DNA of 64,000 bases from Streptomyces sp. NBC_01775 (GTDB lineage: Bacteria; Actinomycetota; Actinomycetes; Streptomycetales; Streptomycetaceae), in contig NZ_CP109104.1 of the NCBI RefSeq assembly GCF_035917675.1, forward strand, positions 1,922,001 through 1,986,000. Reading direction: 5' to 3'. Positions within the stretch are counted from its first letter, which is position 1; every line of letters begins with the position of its first letter. Shown here in pieces: positions 30,268 through 52,143 of the stretch. The position numbers and the translations under genes were made by a program. Below the pieces are notes generated by a model that was given only the letters and a program-made list of their open reading frames with translations, did not search any database and was not told where the DNA came from.

Positions 30268-31992
30268 GTGGACGTACGGGAGTGGCGTGCTGTCGTCGAG
30301 GCGGCACAGGGCGGGGACCGGCAGGCCCTCGACGAGCTGGTCGAGGGCTGGCTCCCGCTGGTCTACAACATCGTCGGCCGCGCCCTGAACGGCCACGCCG
30401 ACGTGGACGACGTCGTGCAGGAGACCATGCTCCGCGCCGTCCACCATCTGCCCGCGCTGCGCGATCCCGAGGGCTTCCGCTCCTGGCTCGTGGCCATCGC
30501 CATGCGCCAGGTGCGCGAGCGGCTGCGCCGCCGGGCGCGTGCGGAGGAGCCGGTGACACCGGCTGAGGCCGAGGCTGCGGCTGAGGACTTCGCGGAGCTG
30601 GCCGTGGTGCGGCTGGAGCTGGACGGCGAGCGCCGGGAGGTCGTCGAGGCGGTGCGCTGGCTGGACGGACCGGACCGCGAGCTGCTGTCCCTGTGGTGGC
30701 AGGAGGTCGGCGGCAGGCTGACGCGCAGCGAGGTCGCCGGTGCGCTGGGCATCAGCCGCCGGCACGCCGCCGTCCGCGTGCAGCGGATGAAGGGGCGGCT
30801 GGAGACGGCGCGCGGCATCGTACGGGCGCTGGAGCGCTCCCGCTGCCGCGAGCTGGCGAAGCTGACCGGCGGCTGGGAGGGGCGCCCCTCCTCGGTCTGG
30901 CGCAAGCGCTTCGCCCGCCATCTGCGGGGCTGCCGGTGGTGCGGTCGGGCGCGGGAGGGTTTCGTACCGCCCGAGCGGCTGCTTGTCGGGCTCGCGCTGG
31001 TCCCGGTCCCGGTCGGGTTCACGGTGGCGTCGCTGCTGGGCGGCGGCAAGGCGGCGGCAGTGGGACTGGGGGCCGCTGCCGCCTCAGCGAGCTGGTCGGC
31101 GAAGGTCCTCGCGGCCGTCGGCAAGCCGGTGGCCGGGCTCACGGCGGGCGCGTCGCTGGTGGCGGGCGGCGCGTACGTCATCTACGAGCGGACGGTCCCG
31201 CACGGCACGCCCCCGCCCCCGGCCACGGCCTCCGCGAACCCCTCCCCCACGGCTCGCTCAGCCCCCTCGGTGACGGGCTCCCCCACCACGCCGCCACGCG
31301 ATGCCCCCTCACCGACGGCCGAGAAACCGCGGGCGCGCGCCGCGTACGGCAGCGTCGTGGACGCGGCCGACCGGGCGCCGGACCCGGGGCGGCGGCCCGG
31401 CGCGCTGCCGCGGCGCGCCGACCGGGGACTGACGAGCAGCGGCGGCGGCAAAGCCGTGCTGACCCACCGGGGGGAGTCGGTGTCCCTGCGCGGCACCGGC
31501 TATGTGCGCGTCCGCTGGCAGATCCTCCCGGACCAGCGCCCGGGAAGCCTCGTCATGCCCACCTGGACCCGGCTGCACGGCAAGCTCTTCCACGTCGCCT
31601 CGGGCGGCGGGCGCCGCATGGACGACCGCCGGCCGGGCGCGGGTGACAGGACGTGGATGGGCTCGCCGTCCGGCGGGCTCACCCAGCTTCCGCGTGGCGC
31701 ACAGCAGATGTGGCAGAACGAGTACTTCTGGCTGGACGGCGGCGTCACTCTGCACCTGAACGAGAGCGGCGCCGACTACAACCTCATCGTGGAGCCGATG
31801 AGGCGCGAGGACATTCGCGCCGACCTCGGGACCGGCCCCGACCCCGCCCAGGGCGTCGTCCGCTACGGCCTCGTCCGCGACACGGGCAACGACCGGGCGC
31901 CGGTCCCCCAGTACGTCACGCGCTCGTCCCCCGGCGACCCGGCGACGGTGCCGCAGCGCTCCCGGCTCCGCTGGGGAGTGTCTTCGAAGTAG
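30268..31992 (+). CDS. Membrane-tethered ECF-type sigma factor with extracytoplasmic C-terminal domain
   Basis: A 574-residue fusion. Residues about 8-75 are sigma region 2 (LPLVYNIVGRALNGHADVDD, then VVQETMLRAV). About 130-185 is region 4 with helix-turn-helix LTRSEVAGALGISRRHAAVR. HLRGCRWC (about 217-224) resembles the HxxxCxxC zinc motif of anti-sigma factors. Hydrophobic segments follow near 235-260 and 265-310, then a Pro/Ser/Thr linker and a C-terminal region of about 200 residues of unknown fold. GTG 30268 has GGGGAG nine bases upstream; GTG 30217 is possible. Its stop lies in the left end of a repeat element. Confidence 0.82.
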   Translation: MDVREWRAVVEAAQGGDRQALDELVEGWLPLVYNIVGRALNGHADVDDVVQETMLRAVHHLPALRDPEGFRSWLVAIAMRQVRERLRRRARAEEPVTPAEAEAAAEDFAELAVVRLELDGERREVVEAVRWLDGPDRELLSLWWQEVGGRLTRSEVAGALGISRRHAAVRVQRMKGRLETARGIVRALERSRCRELAKLTGGWEGRPSSVWRKRFARHLRGCRWCGRAREGFVPPERLLVGLALVPVPVGFTVASLLGGGKAAAVGLGAAAASASWSAKVLAAVGKPVAGLTAGASLVAGGAYVIYERTVPHGTPPPPATASANPSPTARSAPSVTGSPTTPPRDAPSPTAEKPRARAAYGSVVDAADRAPDPGRRPGALPRRADRGLTSSGGGKAVLTHRGESVSLRGTGYVRVRWQILPDQRPGSLVMPTWTRLHGKLFHVASGGGRRMDDRRPGAGDRTWMGSPSGGLTQLPRGAQQMWQNEYFWLDGGVTLHLNESGADYNLIVEPMRREDIRADLGTGPDPAQGVVRYGLVRDTGNDRAPVPQYVTRSSPGDPATVPQRSRLRWGVSSK

Positions 31993-32199
31993 CGTCGTCC
32001 GCCCGGAAGGCGGGCCCGGCGGTGCCTGGTGTGTGCGATCGCAAGGCGGAGGAGGGTGGGGGCACCTCCCGGCCGGAGGCTGGGGGGACCCCGCGGAGCA
32101 GCGGCGACCGACGACAACGCCGCTGGGGGCACCCCCTGCTCGGAGAGCTTGGGGGAGTGCGTGCCAGGCACCACCGGGCAGACGGGACTTCGAAGACAC
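31978..32199. mobile_element. MITE-like element with inverted ends
   Basis: GTGTCTTCGAAGT at 31978-31990 recurs inverted at 32187-32199. Further similarity inward (CGTC..GCCCGG, GGTGCCTGG) continues the inverted repeat to about 50 bases at each end. No coding capacity. The interior carries two hairpin modules shared with the element at 51764-52105. Its left end supplies the last codons and TAG of the sigma-factor gene. No target-site duplication is evident. Confidence 0.65.
32117..32166. repeat. 50-bp repeat module, copy 1
   Basis: The stretch starting AACGCCGCTGGGGGCACCCC and ending GGGGGAGTGCGTGCC is identical, apart from one base, to 52018-52067. It can fold on itself (CCCCCTGCTC/GAGAGCTTGGGGG). 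It is part of the inverted-end element. Confidence 0.85.
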
Positions 32200-46544: not shown

Positions 46545-49500
46545 ATGACCACCGACCTGACCCTGCTGCCGCGTGTCGCCTATCGCGGACAGGAGGTCAC
46601 CGCGCCCCGGATCCGCGGCCTCCTCGCGCTGCTCGCGGGCGACTTGCGCACCGGCTGCGGCACCGAGCGGCTGGTGGCGGGGCTGTGGCCGGACGAGTTG
46701 CCGGAGCGGCCGGGAAAGGCGGTGCAGGTCCTCGTGTCCAGGGCGCGGGCGCAGCTGGGCGCCGACGTCCTCGCAAGCACACCGACCGGATACCGGCTCG
46801 CCCTCGCCGAGGACCAGGTCGACAGCTCAGCCCTGCTGCTGCACGCCGCCGCGAGCGCGGACCGGGCCAGGGCCGGGGACCACGCGGGTTCGCTGGCCGC
46901 GGCCGAGGCCGGACTCGCGCTGTGGGAGGGCACCCCTGACGGGGCCGGCGGGCCCGGCGAAAGCACAGACCCCGTAGCCGCGTTGCGCACCGAGCGCGCC
47001 CCCGTCCGCGGCACGCTCATACGCGCGCGGGCGCTCGCGCTCGCCCGGCTGGGGCGGCACGCGGAGGCGGCCGGGCCGCTGGCCGTGGCCGCCTCGGAGC
47101 ATCCGCGCGACGAGGAGGTGCTCGCCGAGCTGCTGCGCGGCGAGGCGGCGACGACGGGCCCGTCCGCCGCGCTGACGCGGTACGAGACGTACCGCCGTGA
47201 GCTGCGCGAGACGCTCGGCACGGATCCGGGCGCCGGGCTCAAGGCCGTACAGCGGGAGCTGCTGCGCGGCGAGGCGCCCGTGGTCCGGCGCGGCGTGCCG
47301 CACGAGCCGAACCCGCTGCTGGGACGGGACGAGGACATCGCGGCGGTGGAGCGGCTGCTGCGCGCCTCCCGCGCCGTCACCGTCGTCGGCCCCGGCGGCC
47401 TCGGCAAGACCCGGCTCGCGCACGCCGTCAGCCGCCAATGGGGTCTCCCCTGCTCGAGCGAAGCCGAGAGCTTGGGGAACGAGCAGCGCGTGGTGTATTT
47501 CGTGCCCCTCGCCGGCGTCCCCGTGGACGAGGACGTGGCCGCGGAGGTGGCCTCCGCGCTCGGTGCGGGCGAGGGGCGGCCGGCCGCCATGAGCGGCCAT
47601 GCCCCGGCCGACCCGGTGTCCGGCATCCTCGGTGCGCTCGGCTCCGGGCCCGCGCTGCTGGTCCTCGACAACTGCGAGCAGGTCATCCGGGGCGCCGCCG
47701 ACCTCGTACAGGCCCTGGTCTCGTCCTCGAAGGACCTGCGGGTGCTCGCCACCAGCCGGGCCCCACTGGGCCTCACGTCGGAGGCCGTGTACGCGCTGCC
47801 GGAGCTCCACCCCGCCACCTCGGCCGAGCTGTTCACGCAGCGGGCCCGGGCCGCCCGGCCCGGCGTGGAGCTGCCGCCGGACGCGGTGGGCGAGCTGTGC
47901 CGCCACCTCGACGGGCTGCCGCTCGCCGTGGAGTTGGCAGCGGCGCGGGTGCGGGTGTTGTCGGTGCCGGAGATCGCCCGCCGCCTCGGTGACCGGTTCG
48001 CGCTGCTGCGCGGCGGGGCGCGGGACGCACCGGAGCGCCACCGCACGCTGCACGCCGTCGTGGAGTGGAGCTGGAACCTGCTCGCTGAGGACGCCAGGGC
48101 GGCGCTGCGCACGCTGTCCGTCTTCCCCGGTGGCTTCGCCGGCGAGGCGGCGGAGCAGGTGCTCGGTGAGGATGCGCTGCTTGTGCTGGAGCAGTTGGCC
48201 GGTCAGTCGCTGCTCACCGTCGCCGACACCCCGGCCGGCATCCGGTTCCGGATGCTGGAGACCGTACGGGAGTTCTGCGCGGCCAGGCGCACGGAGGCGG
48301 GCGAGGACGAGGAGGCCGTCGCCCAATTCCTGGCCTGGGCACGGGACTTCGGGGTCGCGTACCACGGCTGGTTCTTCGGCTCGGAACCTTCCCCAGGCTC
48401 TCGGCTCCGCTCCCCCATTGCCGCCTGGGAGCGGATCAGGGCCGAGCAGGACAACCTCGTGCTGGCCCTGCGGCACGCCCTGGCCCGCGACGACGGCCCC
48501 GCCATCGCCGCTCTCACCGCCGTCCTGGCCGCCCTGTGGTCCACCGGCTCCAACTACCCCCGCCTCGCCGCCCTCGCCACGGACACCGGCCCGCCGCTGT
48601 CGCACTACCACCCCGAGCCCGAGTACGTCGAAGTCGCCCGCGCCGCAGCGGTGTTGTGCACGGCGAGCCTGTTCATGGGCTACGGCCCGCGCGCCGGACG
48701 CCACCTCGTCACCCTCCGGCGGCTGCCCCCGGCCCCGCCGGACACGCTGCCGCGGGCCATCGGGGTCGTGCTGAGCGCGGTCCCCGAGATGCTGCCTCCC
48801 GGCTACGACGTGCTGCGCGAACTCAGCGACAGCGAGCAGCCGCTGCTCGCCGGCACCGCGGAGTACATCGCCACCCTCGTCTGGGAGTCCGAGCACGACA
48901 TAGACCGCGCGCTCGCCTCCGCTCGCCGGATGATCGCCGCACTGGCACCGGTCGACAACCCGTTCCTGCAAGTCATCGGCCACGCCCGGCTGGGCGAGCT
49001 GTGCTTGCAGACGGAGCAGGGCGAGGCCGCGTACGAGCACCTCAAGGCGGCGCTCGAGGCGCTGCCGCGGCTCGGCGACGAGCAGGACTCCATCGGCGTC
49101 CGCTGGGGCCTCGTCCTCGCCTGCCTGCATCGTGGCGACCCCGACGAGGCCGAGTACTGGCTGCGGCAGGCGGAAGGCGACAACCCGCAGCAGGACGCCT
49201 TCTCGAACCTCGACCTCGGCAGCAGCCGCGCCGAGATCGCGCTGACCCGCGGACTGACGGAGGTCGGACTCGGCCTGTGGCGCGGCGCCGTGGAACGGAT
49301 GCCCGAGGCCGGCCCGACGCACAGCACCGACACCGACCCCTTCTTCGACCGGTGGGCGCTACAGCTCCAGTCGGCGGCGGTGACGGCGCACGCGCACGCC
49401 GGCCGTCTCGAACTGGTCGCAGGGCTGGCCGACCGGCTGCGGCAGCGGCTGCGGACCCTGCTGTCCGGCCCGTCCCCCTCGCCCATGGAGCTCCCTGTGT

Positions 49501-49799
49501 TCGGGACGGCGCTGCACGCGCTCGGCATGGCGGGGCTCGCGTCCGGCCGACGTGACCCCGACCCCGCCCCCGACCCCGCCGCTGCTGCCGCCGCCGTACG
49601 GATGATCGCGCTGGCTGAACGGCTGCGTGTGCTGCGCGACTTCCAGCCGACGATGTCGGCGGACCGCGCCCGGACGGCGGCCCGGAACGCCGACAGGGCG
49701 GCGTACGCCGACGCGGTGTCGGAGTACGCCGCCCTGGGGCGGGACGAGTTGCGGGAGGCAGCCCGCGCTGTCATGGCGGTTACTTCGGGTCGCGGTTGA
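46545..49799 (+). CDS. AfsR-like BTAD/NB-ARC transcriptional regulator
   Basis: A 1084-residue STAND regulator. A short winged-helix region (about 1-75) is followed by the BTAD all-helical domain (about 80-245). A nucleotide-binding domain has the P-loop GPGGLGKTRLAHA (about 281-294) and LLVLDNCEQVI Walker B, and ends in LLEQLAGQSLLTVADTPAGI-type sequence. A large helical TPR-like C-terminus completes it. Two in-frame hairpin insertions break the otherwise conserved order (residues about 299-312 and 615-625). ATG 46545. The gene ends convergently with the DrrB-type permease, overlapping by 20 bases, so regulation of that transporter is plausible. Confidence 0.9.
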   Translation: MTTDLTLLPRVAYRGQEVTAPRIRGLLALLAGDLRTGCGTERLVAGLWPDELPERPGKAVQVLVSRARAQLGADVLASTPTGYRLALAEDQVDSSALLLHAAASADRARAGDHAGSLAAAEAGLALWEGTPDGAGGPGESTDPVAALRTERAPVRGTLIRARALALARLGRHAEAAGPLAVAASEHPRDEEVLAELLRGEAATTGPSAALTRYETYRRELRETLGTDPGAGLKAVQRELLRGEAPVVRRGVPHEPNPLLGRDEDIAAVERLLRASRAVTVVGPGGLGKTRLAHAVSRQWGLPCSSEAESLGNEQRVVYFVPLAGVPVDEDVAAEVASALGAGEGRPAAMSGHAPADPVSGILGALGSGPALLVLDNCEQVIRGAADLVQALVSSSKDLRVLATSRAPLGLTSEAVYALPELHPATSAELFTQRARAARPGVELPPDAVGELCRHLDGLPLAVELAAARVRVLSVPEIARRLGDRFALLRGGARDAPERHRTLHAVVEWSWNLLAEDARAALRTLSVFPGGFAGEAAEQVLGEDALLVLEQLAGQSLLTVADTPAGIRFRMLETVREFCAARRTEAGEDEEAVAQFLAWARDFGVAYHGWFFGSEPSPGSRLRSPIAAWERIRAEQDNLVLALRHALARDDGPAIAALTAVLAALWSTGSNYPRLAALATDTGPPLSHYHPEPEYVEVARAAAVLCTASLFMGYGPRAGRHLVTLRRLPPAPPDTLPRAIGVVLSAVPEMLPPGYDVLRELSDSEQPLLAGTAEYIATLVWESEHDIDRALASARRMIAALAPVDNPFLQVIGHARLGELCLQTEQGEAAYEHLKAALEALPRLGDEQDSIGVRWGLVLACLHRGDPDEAEYWLRQAEGDNPQQDAFSNLDLGSSRAEIALTRGLTEVGLGLWRGAVERMPEAGPTHSTDTDPFFDRWALQLQSAAVTAHAHAGRLELVAGLADRLRQRLRTLLSGPSPSPMELPVFGTALHALGMAGLASGRRDPDPAPDPAAAAAAVRMIALAERLRVLRDFQPTMSADRARTAARNADRAAYADAVSEYAALGRDELREAARAVMAVTSGRG
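47440..47480 (+). repeat. In-frame palindromic insertion 1 in the AfsR-like gene
   Basis: GGGGTCTCCCCTGCTCGAGC, then GAAGCCGAGAGCTTGGGGAAC, encodes QWGLPCSSEAESLGNE between the P-loop helix and the following strand. It can fold as a hairpin (CCCC..GCTCG / CGAG..GC..GGGG) and resembles the hairpin modules of the intergenic elements. Confidence 0.65.
48388..48420 (-). repeat. In-frame palindromic insertion 2 in the AfsR-like gene
   Basis: On the minus strand this reads CAATGGGGGAGCGGAGCCGA, then GAGCCTGGGGAAGG, which shares CAATGGGG, AGCCGAGAGC and TGGGGAA with insertion 1 but in the opposite orientation. In the protein it gives EPSPGSRLRSPIAAW, about residues 615-629. Confidence 0.6.
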
Positions 49800-51563: not shown

Positions 51564-51787
51564 GCCCCACAACTTGCAGCGGGGCGGTTTCAGCGCGGAT
51601 TCAGCACGGTTTCAGCGCCCTGGAACCGAGCGGCGCAGGACAGTCCTTCCGTGGTCCATGTTCAGCCCTGAAGCACGAGAGCACCTCGTCGACCGCGCGA
51701 GGACTGGGTCCTCCCGGCACCCGCCCTGCTCCGAACACGTCCTCGCTCTCCGCCGTATGCCCCAGTGCCCCTCCCGGCAAGCTTCGC

Positions 51788-51815
51788 CCGGTCACGGCAC
51801 TAGTGCCGTGACCGG
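51788..51815. repeat. Perfect 28-bp palindrome inside the MITE-like element
   Basis: Its left arm is CCGGTCACGGCACT, continued without a spacer by AGTGCCGTGACCGG. The right half with the following CAATGTTTGCCCGTCAAGG matches copy C at 36491-36593. Confidence 0.9.
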
Positions 51816-52017
51816 CAATGTTTGCCCGTCAAGGAGCGTCGTCGTGGGGGCACCGCCCGCCCGCCCGCGCGAGCGGAGCCGAGCGTGGGGGAGCGTGCGA
51901 TCGCAAGGCGGCCGGAAGCCCTTGATCGGGGTCTCCCCCGCTCTGGGGGCACCTCCCGGCCGAAGGCCGGGGGAGAAGCTGAGAGCTTGGGGAAGGAGCT
52001 ACCAGGGCTTTTGGCCA

Positions 52018-52067
52018 ACGCCGCTGGGGGCACCCCCTGCTCGGAGAGCTCGGGGGAGTGCGTGCCG
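52018..52067. repeat. 50-bp repeat module, copy 2
   Basis: Matches 32117-32166 apart from one base (CTC for CTT in the GAGAGCTY segment). See copy 1. Confidence 0.85.
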
Positions 52068-52143
52068 GACGACGCGACGGGGCAAAGCTTGCCGGGAGGG
52101 GCACTATCTGGAGCAGCGTCTTGTCGGCGTCGGTGCGAGGTGT

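Follow-up and report, generated by a model that had tools for sequence, protein, structure and literature searches.

In-frame copies of a dispersed palindromic repeat within an AfsR-like gene of Streptomyces

An AfsR-like gene of Streptomyces sp. NBC_01775 carries two related palindromic segments, and the question raised by this locus is whether they are old parts of the protein or pieces of inserted DNA which have kept the reading frame open. The first-pass annotation of the window (the whole 64,000-nt stretch of DNA which was analysed) had read them as in-frame insertions of a hairpin repeat, a phenomenon hitherto treated mainly as a Rickettsia feature. Both AfsR segments were confirmed as copies of one dispersed palindromic repeat, and the interpretation of in-frame insertion was supported. 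The segments very probably arose by insertion of a small mobile palindrome, which would be non-autonomous and is spread across the genus Streptomyces.

The AfsR-like gene and its two inserts

The open reading frame which houses both segments (Table 1) gave a BTAD match of 77.4 bits (cut-off 22.1) in the domain profile search and an AAA_16 match below threshold (30.6 bits vs. a cut-off of 32.6). The protein identity of its orthologues in other Streptomyces genomes is 86% and lower. That two related repeats lie in opposite orientations in one AfsR-like gene was confirmed by this BTAD-containing ORF, by a 24-nt inverted pair in the window (47456-47479 and 48389-48412, 92% complementary) and by the 20-mer GAAGCCGAGAGCTTGGGGAA, for which three window matches with up to 3 mismatches (47460 on the + strand, 48389 on the - strand and 51975 on the + strand) were obtained, compared with 0.00 expected from shuffles. 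The repeats do lie at the extents first noted (47440-47480 and 48388-48420), but their borders had to be corrected to those in Table 1.

Table 1. Features of the window with their positions, strand and the basis of each entry
Feature	Positions	Strand	Basis or remark
Shorter of the two long composite intergenic elements, related modules at 32057-32078 and 32124-32145	31978-32199		inverted-repeat search
AfsR-like regulator ORF, 1084 aa, BTAD and NTPase-like region, houses both inserts	46545-49799	+	one open frame
Insert 1, palindromic module of the AA subfamily, 43 nt	47437-47479	+	codon-level orthologue alignment, letters checked
Insert 2, opposite-strand copy of the module of insert 1, 31 nt	48389-48419	-	codon-level orthologue alignment, letters checked
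Long composite intergenic element, several hairpins, 33-nt terminal inverted arms	51764-52105		arms 51764-51796 and 52073-52105, 91% complementary
Module of the AfsR inserts within the long intergenic element, short hairpin in its loop	51924-51994	+	own-genome copies compared
Nested short hairpin, 31 nt, TGGGGGCACC...GGGGGA	51944-51974	+	net +27 nt vs. uninterrupted copies

A 1261-bp query spanning both inserts was compared with 392 Streptomyces genomes and matched 86 places in 83 of them, and 50 of the 86 places (the window, 29 returned loci and 20 fetched loci) were aligned. The denominator for insert 2 is 49, as one row (L252) stops short of its region. Insert 1 (AATGGGG...GGGGAA) has zero mismatches to the module core pattern and is present in 2/50 rows, the window and L214 (genome G329). 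Relatives with an empty site have GGGC instead, and the net gain is +39 nt, i.e., 13 codons encoding the peptide WGLPCSSEAESLG. Insert 2 is present in 4/49 rows, those of the window, L209 (G239), L210 (G032) and L211 (G124); its empty-site relatives have CCGC, and the net gain in the window is +27 nt, or 9 codons. The addition in frame was thus read correctly at the outset, but its size of 11-14 residues was not, the net additions being 13 and 9 residues. The empty rows for both inserts include the most distant orthologues aligned, and the inserted residues, whose occurrence in distant orthologues had been named beforehand as evidence against insertion, are absent from them. Three rows (L209, L210 and L211) keep the full 39-nt net form at the site of insert 2, and, therefore, the window copy has lost 12 nt in frame. 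Moreover, L214 carries insert 1 without insert 2, while L209, L210 and L211 carry insert 2 without insert 1, which indicates that the two inserts were separate events.

The segments had also been placed in protein regions expected to be conserved. The flanks are indeed conserved, but the inserts themselves fall into low-pLDDT coil of a low-confidence model (mean pLDDT 68, pTM 0.44), which was built from 19 sequences for residues 241-700. Insert 1 was modelled as coil between the helix following the P-loop and the next strand, insert 2 as coil between two helices, both mostly with pLDDT <50. Both would be compatible with tolerated loop insertions, the model being too weak for more. No RNA family reached its gathering score between 47200 and 52400, where one sub-threshold microRNA match (49694-49737) was obtained. 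Loss from the orthologues in place of gain was ruled out by the empty AfsR rows.

Spread and anatomy of the repeat family

In its own genome, the repeat was found at 32 places with the 20-mer (reversed control 1), at 10 places with a 33-nt core (control 0) and at 88 places with the 17-nt half of a related short hairpin (control 3). The core is present in 77/121 Streptomyces genomes, with 513 copies in total and a maximum of 62 per genome, and the reversed pattern gave 0 matches in the same 121 genomes. None of the 354 sampled genomes of other genera contained the core; in a class-wide sample of 394 genomes it occurs in 23, all among the 40 Streptomyces genomes of that sample. A genome_contigs scan returned at least 120 stretches, and the titles among the matches listed were those of Streptomyces, Actinacidiphila or [Kitasatospora] papulosa only. 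An absence of other genomic copies had been regarded as contrary to insertion; instead, there are many in the genome itself and in the genus. Chance similarity of the segments was ruled out by the shuffle and reversed-pattern controls.

The module is a unit of about 43 nt (AATGGGG...GGGGAA or RTGGGGG...GGGGGA) with a shorter relative of 31 nt. Base counts in 114 copies place its ends near RATGGGG(G) and GGGGRAG, and the flanks outside carry little information, 34% of the flanking bases being C. The centre of the module is GAGCGAAGC, which we take to resemble the very stable DNA mini-hairpin GCGAAGC. The description of the segments as hairpins holds for the family and not for the single copies. 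Taken alone, insert 1 and insert 2 fold no more stably than their shuffled versions (RNA z -0.64 and -0.36, repeat strand), and, therefore, the label rests on family-wide covariation of the stem. In a set of 159 copies, pair 11-18, both columns of which were free in the search, is GC in 124 and AT in 25; its Fisher value of 3e-22 is a guide only and no true probability, since the copies are related. Pair 6-23 varies in step as well (CG 148, TA 7, TG 3). Variable columns were left free in this set, and the constancy of the remaining pairs is partly forced by the search pattern. Six-frame translation of four consensus units gave no stop codon for the two main forms and the short hairpin, and a single stop, in one frame, for one subvariant of the module. 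By a rough estimate, such openness is not rare in GC-rich DNA and is, therefore, weak evidence of adaptation.

The resemblance of the AfsR segments to the two long intergenic elements of the window, as originally noticed, is real. The module in the longer of these elements is interrupted by another hairpin (Table 1). The fetched loci L002-L030 include 23 copies of the own genome in which both inner borders are present, and the nested site of these holds GAAC in 6, the 31-nt hairpin in 13, a 32-nt form in 3 and an 18-nt form in 1. A head-to-tail array of modules was observed in another genome (G036, L160:1462-1533), in which the modules follow one another every 39 nt exactly, a distance equal to the net insertion length.

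Empty sites, net lengths and the reading frame

Filled and empty sites were also compared in other genes. PepN was matched in 113/121 Streptomyces genomes, and in the alignment of L262 with the best 30 loci 8/31 rows carry the insert, all at precisely the same position. The gain is 39 nt in seven of these and 18 nt in the eighth, L387 (G029), with an in-frame loss of 21 nt inside the inserted module. FolP was matched in 119/121 genomes, and 3/34 aligned rows (L318, 30 loci and 3 fetched loci) are filled, each with +39 nt. The short hairpin in MerR (L133, in the window's own genome, G000) adds 27 nt and is filled only in that genome among 12 rows; the 11 relatives were chosen from the matches, and the cut may be misplaced by one or two bases, as the flanks differ. 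At six filled/empty sites (the two in AfsR, PepN, FolP, MerR and the nested intergenic site), read from the alignments without a script, 4 target nt are missing and none is duplicated. The replaced 4-mers are GGGC, CCGC, AACC, CAGC, GAAC and ACGC, all of which end in C. Since 43 - 4 = 39 and 31 - 4 = 27, the net gain is a multiple of three, and this is true of all gains in genes: +39 at both AfsR sites, PepN and FolP, +27 in MerR, and +27 (window insert 2) and +18 (L387) in decayed copies. In-frame internal deletions were thus seen in the modules of two genes, 21 nt in L387 and 12 nt at 48389-48419 of the window.

Copies were assigned to coding sequence by open frames and by GC content at the codon positions, not from annotation, and L147 (own genome) and perhaps L182 (other genomes) may be false coding calls. 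In the own genome, coding sequence seems to flank 9/108 modules on either side, among them the two AfsR inserts and L147, the latter probably by chance. Among the first loci of other genomes, the same holds for 10/30 modules, including L166, which is AfsR insert 2 of G032. On named contigs, 117 distinct copies were found among the matches listed, of which 14 lie too close to a contig end. The 103 classifiable copies have no coding flank in 54 cases, one in 27 and two in 22. Of these last 22 copies among the matches listed, 19 have both flanks on the same strand and in the same frame, 2 on the same strand in another frame and 1 on opposite strands; the 19 represent 18 sites if FabH of L332 and L372 is counted once. 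Frame keeping upon palindrome insertion, proposed for the AfsR inserts and borne out in both, was also observed in 19/21 other same-strand copies with coding sequence on both sides among the matches listed, compared with one third expected (p = 8e-8). The two out-of-frame copies are L277 and L259; L259 has a stop, and they perhaps mark the ends of genes or disrupted ones. Of 2400 positions drawn at random from the same loci, 1135 were in the same frame, 55 in another frame and 243 in neither class, and by this measure the genes bearing the repeat look as unbroken as those free of it. The module is under-represented in genes (19/103 among the matches listed vs. 1135/2400 random places), as expected for tolerated insertions.

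The frame and orientation in which the module is read vary from gene to gene, and the resulting peptides are unrelated. PepN, FabH and FolP were identified as hosts by matches to solved structures. The gaps of PepN and FolP relative to the solved structures shown amount to 13 residues in total; those of FabH and a short-chain dehydrogenase are not clean in the PDB alignments. In FabH of two species (L332, L372), the module lies at what seems to be one site. Further hosts presumably include NuoM, NuoN, a P-type ATPase, the short-chain dehydrogenase and others. Additional own-genome modules apparently in coding frame were noticed at L105, L106, L128, L129 and L070, the hosts of which we take to be Wzz-like, DeoR/LacI-like, PucR-like, rifampin-phosphotransferase-like and SMC-like ORFs.

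Probable movement of the repeat and its place among known elements

Several explanations have to be weighed against mobile insertion. That the segments belonged to the ancestral protein and were lost by most orthologues, with a merely coincidental GC-rich likeness to intergenic repeats, is scarcely credible: the gene trees do not group the carriers, as this would allow, but insert 1 is absent from 48/50 and insert 2 from 45/49 rows, the most distant included, and intergenic DNA as well as many genes of unrelated function contain the module, the latter in differing frames, with controls near zero. It is also highly improbable that the inserts were selected for a useful peptide or mRNA hairpin in the host gene. 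Their presence in several species, in PepN as in AfsR, would be in line with such a use, but the same DNA yields unrelated peptides in its several frames and orientations, copies decay via in-frame deletion (window, L387), and both AfsR inserts lie in low-confidence coil. A REP-like nature, with movement by a Y1 (HUH) transposase, is suggested by the small size, palindromic structure and high copy number of the elements and by their occasional position inside ORFs, as described for REPs in the available part of PMC3733652. Genes matching PF01797 (Y1_Tnp) occur in 33/121 Streptomyces genomes, and genomes with at least 10 module copies have them more often (10/16 vs. 23/105 others, p = 0.0016, with a cut-off chosen post hoc). 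On the other hand, the presence of Y1_Tnp is not associated with that of the module (22/33 vs. 55/88, p = 0.83) nor clearly with its copy number (mean 8.0 with vs. 2.8 without Y1_Tnp, p = 0.11), no module was found near Y1_Tnp at the five loci examined out of many, one genome without a Y1_Tnp match (G026) contains 37 copies, and neither consensus end of the 114 copies has a GTAG or CGTC tag. Such an origin is, on balance, unlikely, and Y1_Tnp was rejected as an evident mobiliser on account of the missing association and the five module-free loci. The search for a transposase partner, which covered PF01797 only, found none.

The history at single sites bears on two further explanations. On the gene tree of PepN, built from 2517 columns, no fewer than 5 changes of the filled state are required even if well supported branches alone are counted, and the filled rows as one clade are rejected (p-AU 2.9e-6). 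Therefore, simple insertion must be supplemented by recurrent insertion at the exact base or by replacement through recombination. The corresponding test for AfsR weakly rejected one clade for insert 1 (p-AU 0.029) and gave 0.116 for insert 2, the bootstrap of this tree not being settled. It may be entertained tentatively that each site was struck once, in an ancestor, and that the insert was later lost precisely on several occasions or exchanged for empty alleles by homologous recombination, the element being no longer mobile. On our own reading, the legible PepN inserts all belong to one subvariant, and the filled label is somewhat clustered on the tree (18/500 shuffles as low). The base adjacent to the insert is C in 8/8 filled and A in 8/8 empty rows of a 16-row set (TTCCCC, or TACCCC in L384, vs. 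TTCACC), and gene exchange among streptomycetes is well known. However, the more distant empty rows L398, L401 and L408 also have the C, and the 60-nt flanks hardly group the filled alleles (mean identity FF 0.947, EF 0.939, EE 0.954, F and E being filled and empty). Filled/empty sister pairs occur twice with full support (L262/L383 and L386/L399), and the empty sisters L383 and L399 show the pre-insertion bases, which simple deletion cannot yield. The divergence of the insert is out of step with that of the gene: L388 and L390 differ by 0.31 in the insert and by 0.08 at third positions, whereas the corresponding values for L262 and L384 are 0.07 and 0.15. Copies without mismatch to the degenerate core exist in many genomes. 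Recurrent insertion, in which the same base would be chosen repeatedly via some target signal, perhaps a local hairpin, deserves comparable reserve. It is consistent with same-base occupancy next to empty close relatives in AfsR-1 (window, L214), PepN and FolP, with the consensus-like FolP copy of L318 and the diverged copies of L421/L425 at one base, and with the final C of the six replaced 4-mers. The flanks of the 114 copies, though, hold little information beyond the element ends, and six sites are few where C makes up 34% of the flanking bases. The PepN site reflects either repeated hits or very short exchanged tracts.

Under the preferred explanation, mobile insertion, the palindromic unit of 43 or 31 nt would insert in either orientation and replace 4 target nt, for a net gain of 39 or 27 nt. 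As the main consensus forms are stop-free in six frames, the struck gene would stay open and gain 13 or 9 residues. Copies would survive where the added residues land in tolerant loops, and such genic copies would then decay through in-frame deletion and substitution. The dispersal of the family, the empty sites in orthologues, the net lengths, the kept frame, the nested modules and the in-frame decay were all observed. Movement of the unit, on its own or with help in trans, is more probable than some copying error, the folded single strand may be the moving form, and selection on the protein would act mainly to tolerate the insert. The at least 5 changes of the PepN filled state, the 2/21 coding-context copies out of frame among the matches listed, the lack of a target duplication and the negative PF01797 search for a transposase partner speak against this explanation. 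A bolder version, which we consider rather unlikely, is that a transposase-free or other single-strand pathway inserts a self-folding hairpin of fixed length at chosen bases; with 4 nt replaced every time, gains of 39 and 27 nt would be frame-neutral by construction. The family would then have evolved to be harmless to genes, being a multiple of three and stop-free in six frames, and would re-target the same bases across species, steadily lengthening proteins.

The general features of a non-autonomous mobile repeat, i.e., unrelated loci and clean empty sites in relatives, were found for the family, and its closest analogy is as originally suggested. According to the available parts of PMC2229807 and PMC10969869, Rickettsia palindromic elements (RPEs) are 105-150 bp long, have terminal inverted repeats and lie in frame within unrelated conserved genes; Wolbachia palindromic repeats are known here from a title cited in PMC2229807. 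The Streptomyces module is likewise a dispersed palindrome, found in frame in coding genes which are empty in relatives. However, its units of 43 or 31 nt lack terminal inverted repeats and replace 4 target nt, and it belongs to a high-GC actinomycete genus. The comparison with Rickettsia is thus apt as an analogy and does not by itself indicate membership. REPs, described in the part of PMC3733652 available as 20-40 nt palindromes of high copy number, mostly intergenic and with some copies within ORFs, share small size, palindromic form, high copy number and some ORF copies with the module, but REP, BIME and REPIN elements with their RAYT differ in the GTAG/CGTC tag and the transposase partner, neither of which was found here (PF01797 search). 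The available text of PMC2229807 describes ERIC/RU-1, RU-3 and the 107-bp form of Correia as non-autonomous elements of ~100-130 bp with terminal inverted repeats, some fused in frame in genes, and with target duplications in ERIC and Correia. The module, too, is in frame in genes and probably non-autonomous, but, unlike in these MITE-like repeats, its palindrome is internal (CCCC...GGGG), its ends AATGGGG and GGGGAA are not inverted repeats, and no target-site duplication is present at the six resolved sites. The family therefore lacks the size and terminal repeats of RPEs, and it has the defining characters of neither REPs nor MITEs. Small dispersed repeats of cyanobacteria (Elhai et al., 2008, as cited in the available part of PMC2884548) are very short and mobile. 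The module resembles them, by description only, in being a very short, probably mobile repeat. Cyanobacterial repeats of this kind are also said to nest and to insert precisely.

On the best reading, the family would work like the RPEs and yet be none of them, and it appears undescribed within the literature searched. The search, which included the repeat's own letters, gave no account of it or of such in-frame palindromes in Streptomyces, in agreement with the first-pass annotation; subscription papers lay mostly outside the coverage. The word Streptomyces is absent from the available parts of PMC3733652, PMC2229807, PMC10969869, PMC2884548 and PMC2267715, and occurs once in those of PMC1525189, concerning IS117, and once in those of PMC1590033. 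In-frame palindrome insertion is now seen in a large, free-living and genetically tractable genus, including the core enzymes PepN and FolP (with FabH, NuoM and NuoN as candidates). Hundreds of copies, together with natural filled and empty alleles, make the movement of minute elements, frame keeping and protein neutrality testable. Indels of 13 and 9 residues in Streptomyces alignments may be mobile DNA. Module repeats may also break assemblies. In one genome (G095), contigs C5, C9, C16, C19, C27 and C30 have a module 1-43 bases from their first base, and, with six contigs starting at or close to it, the module seems to break this assembly.
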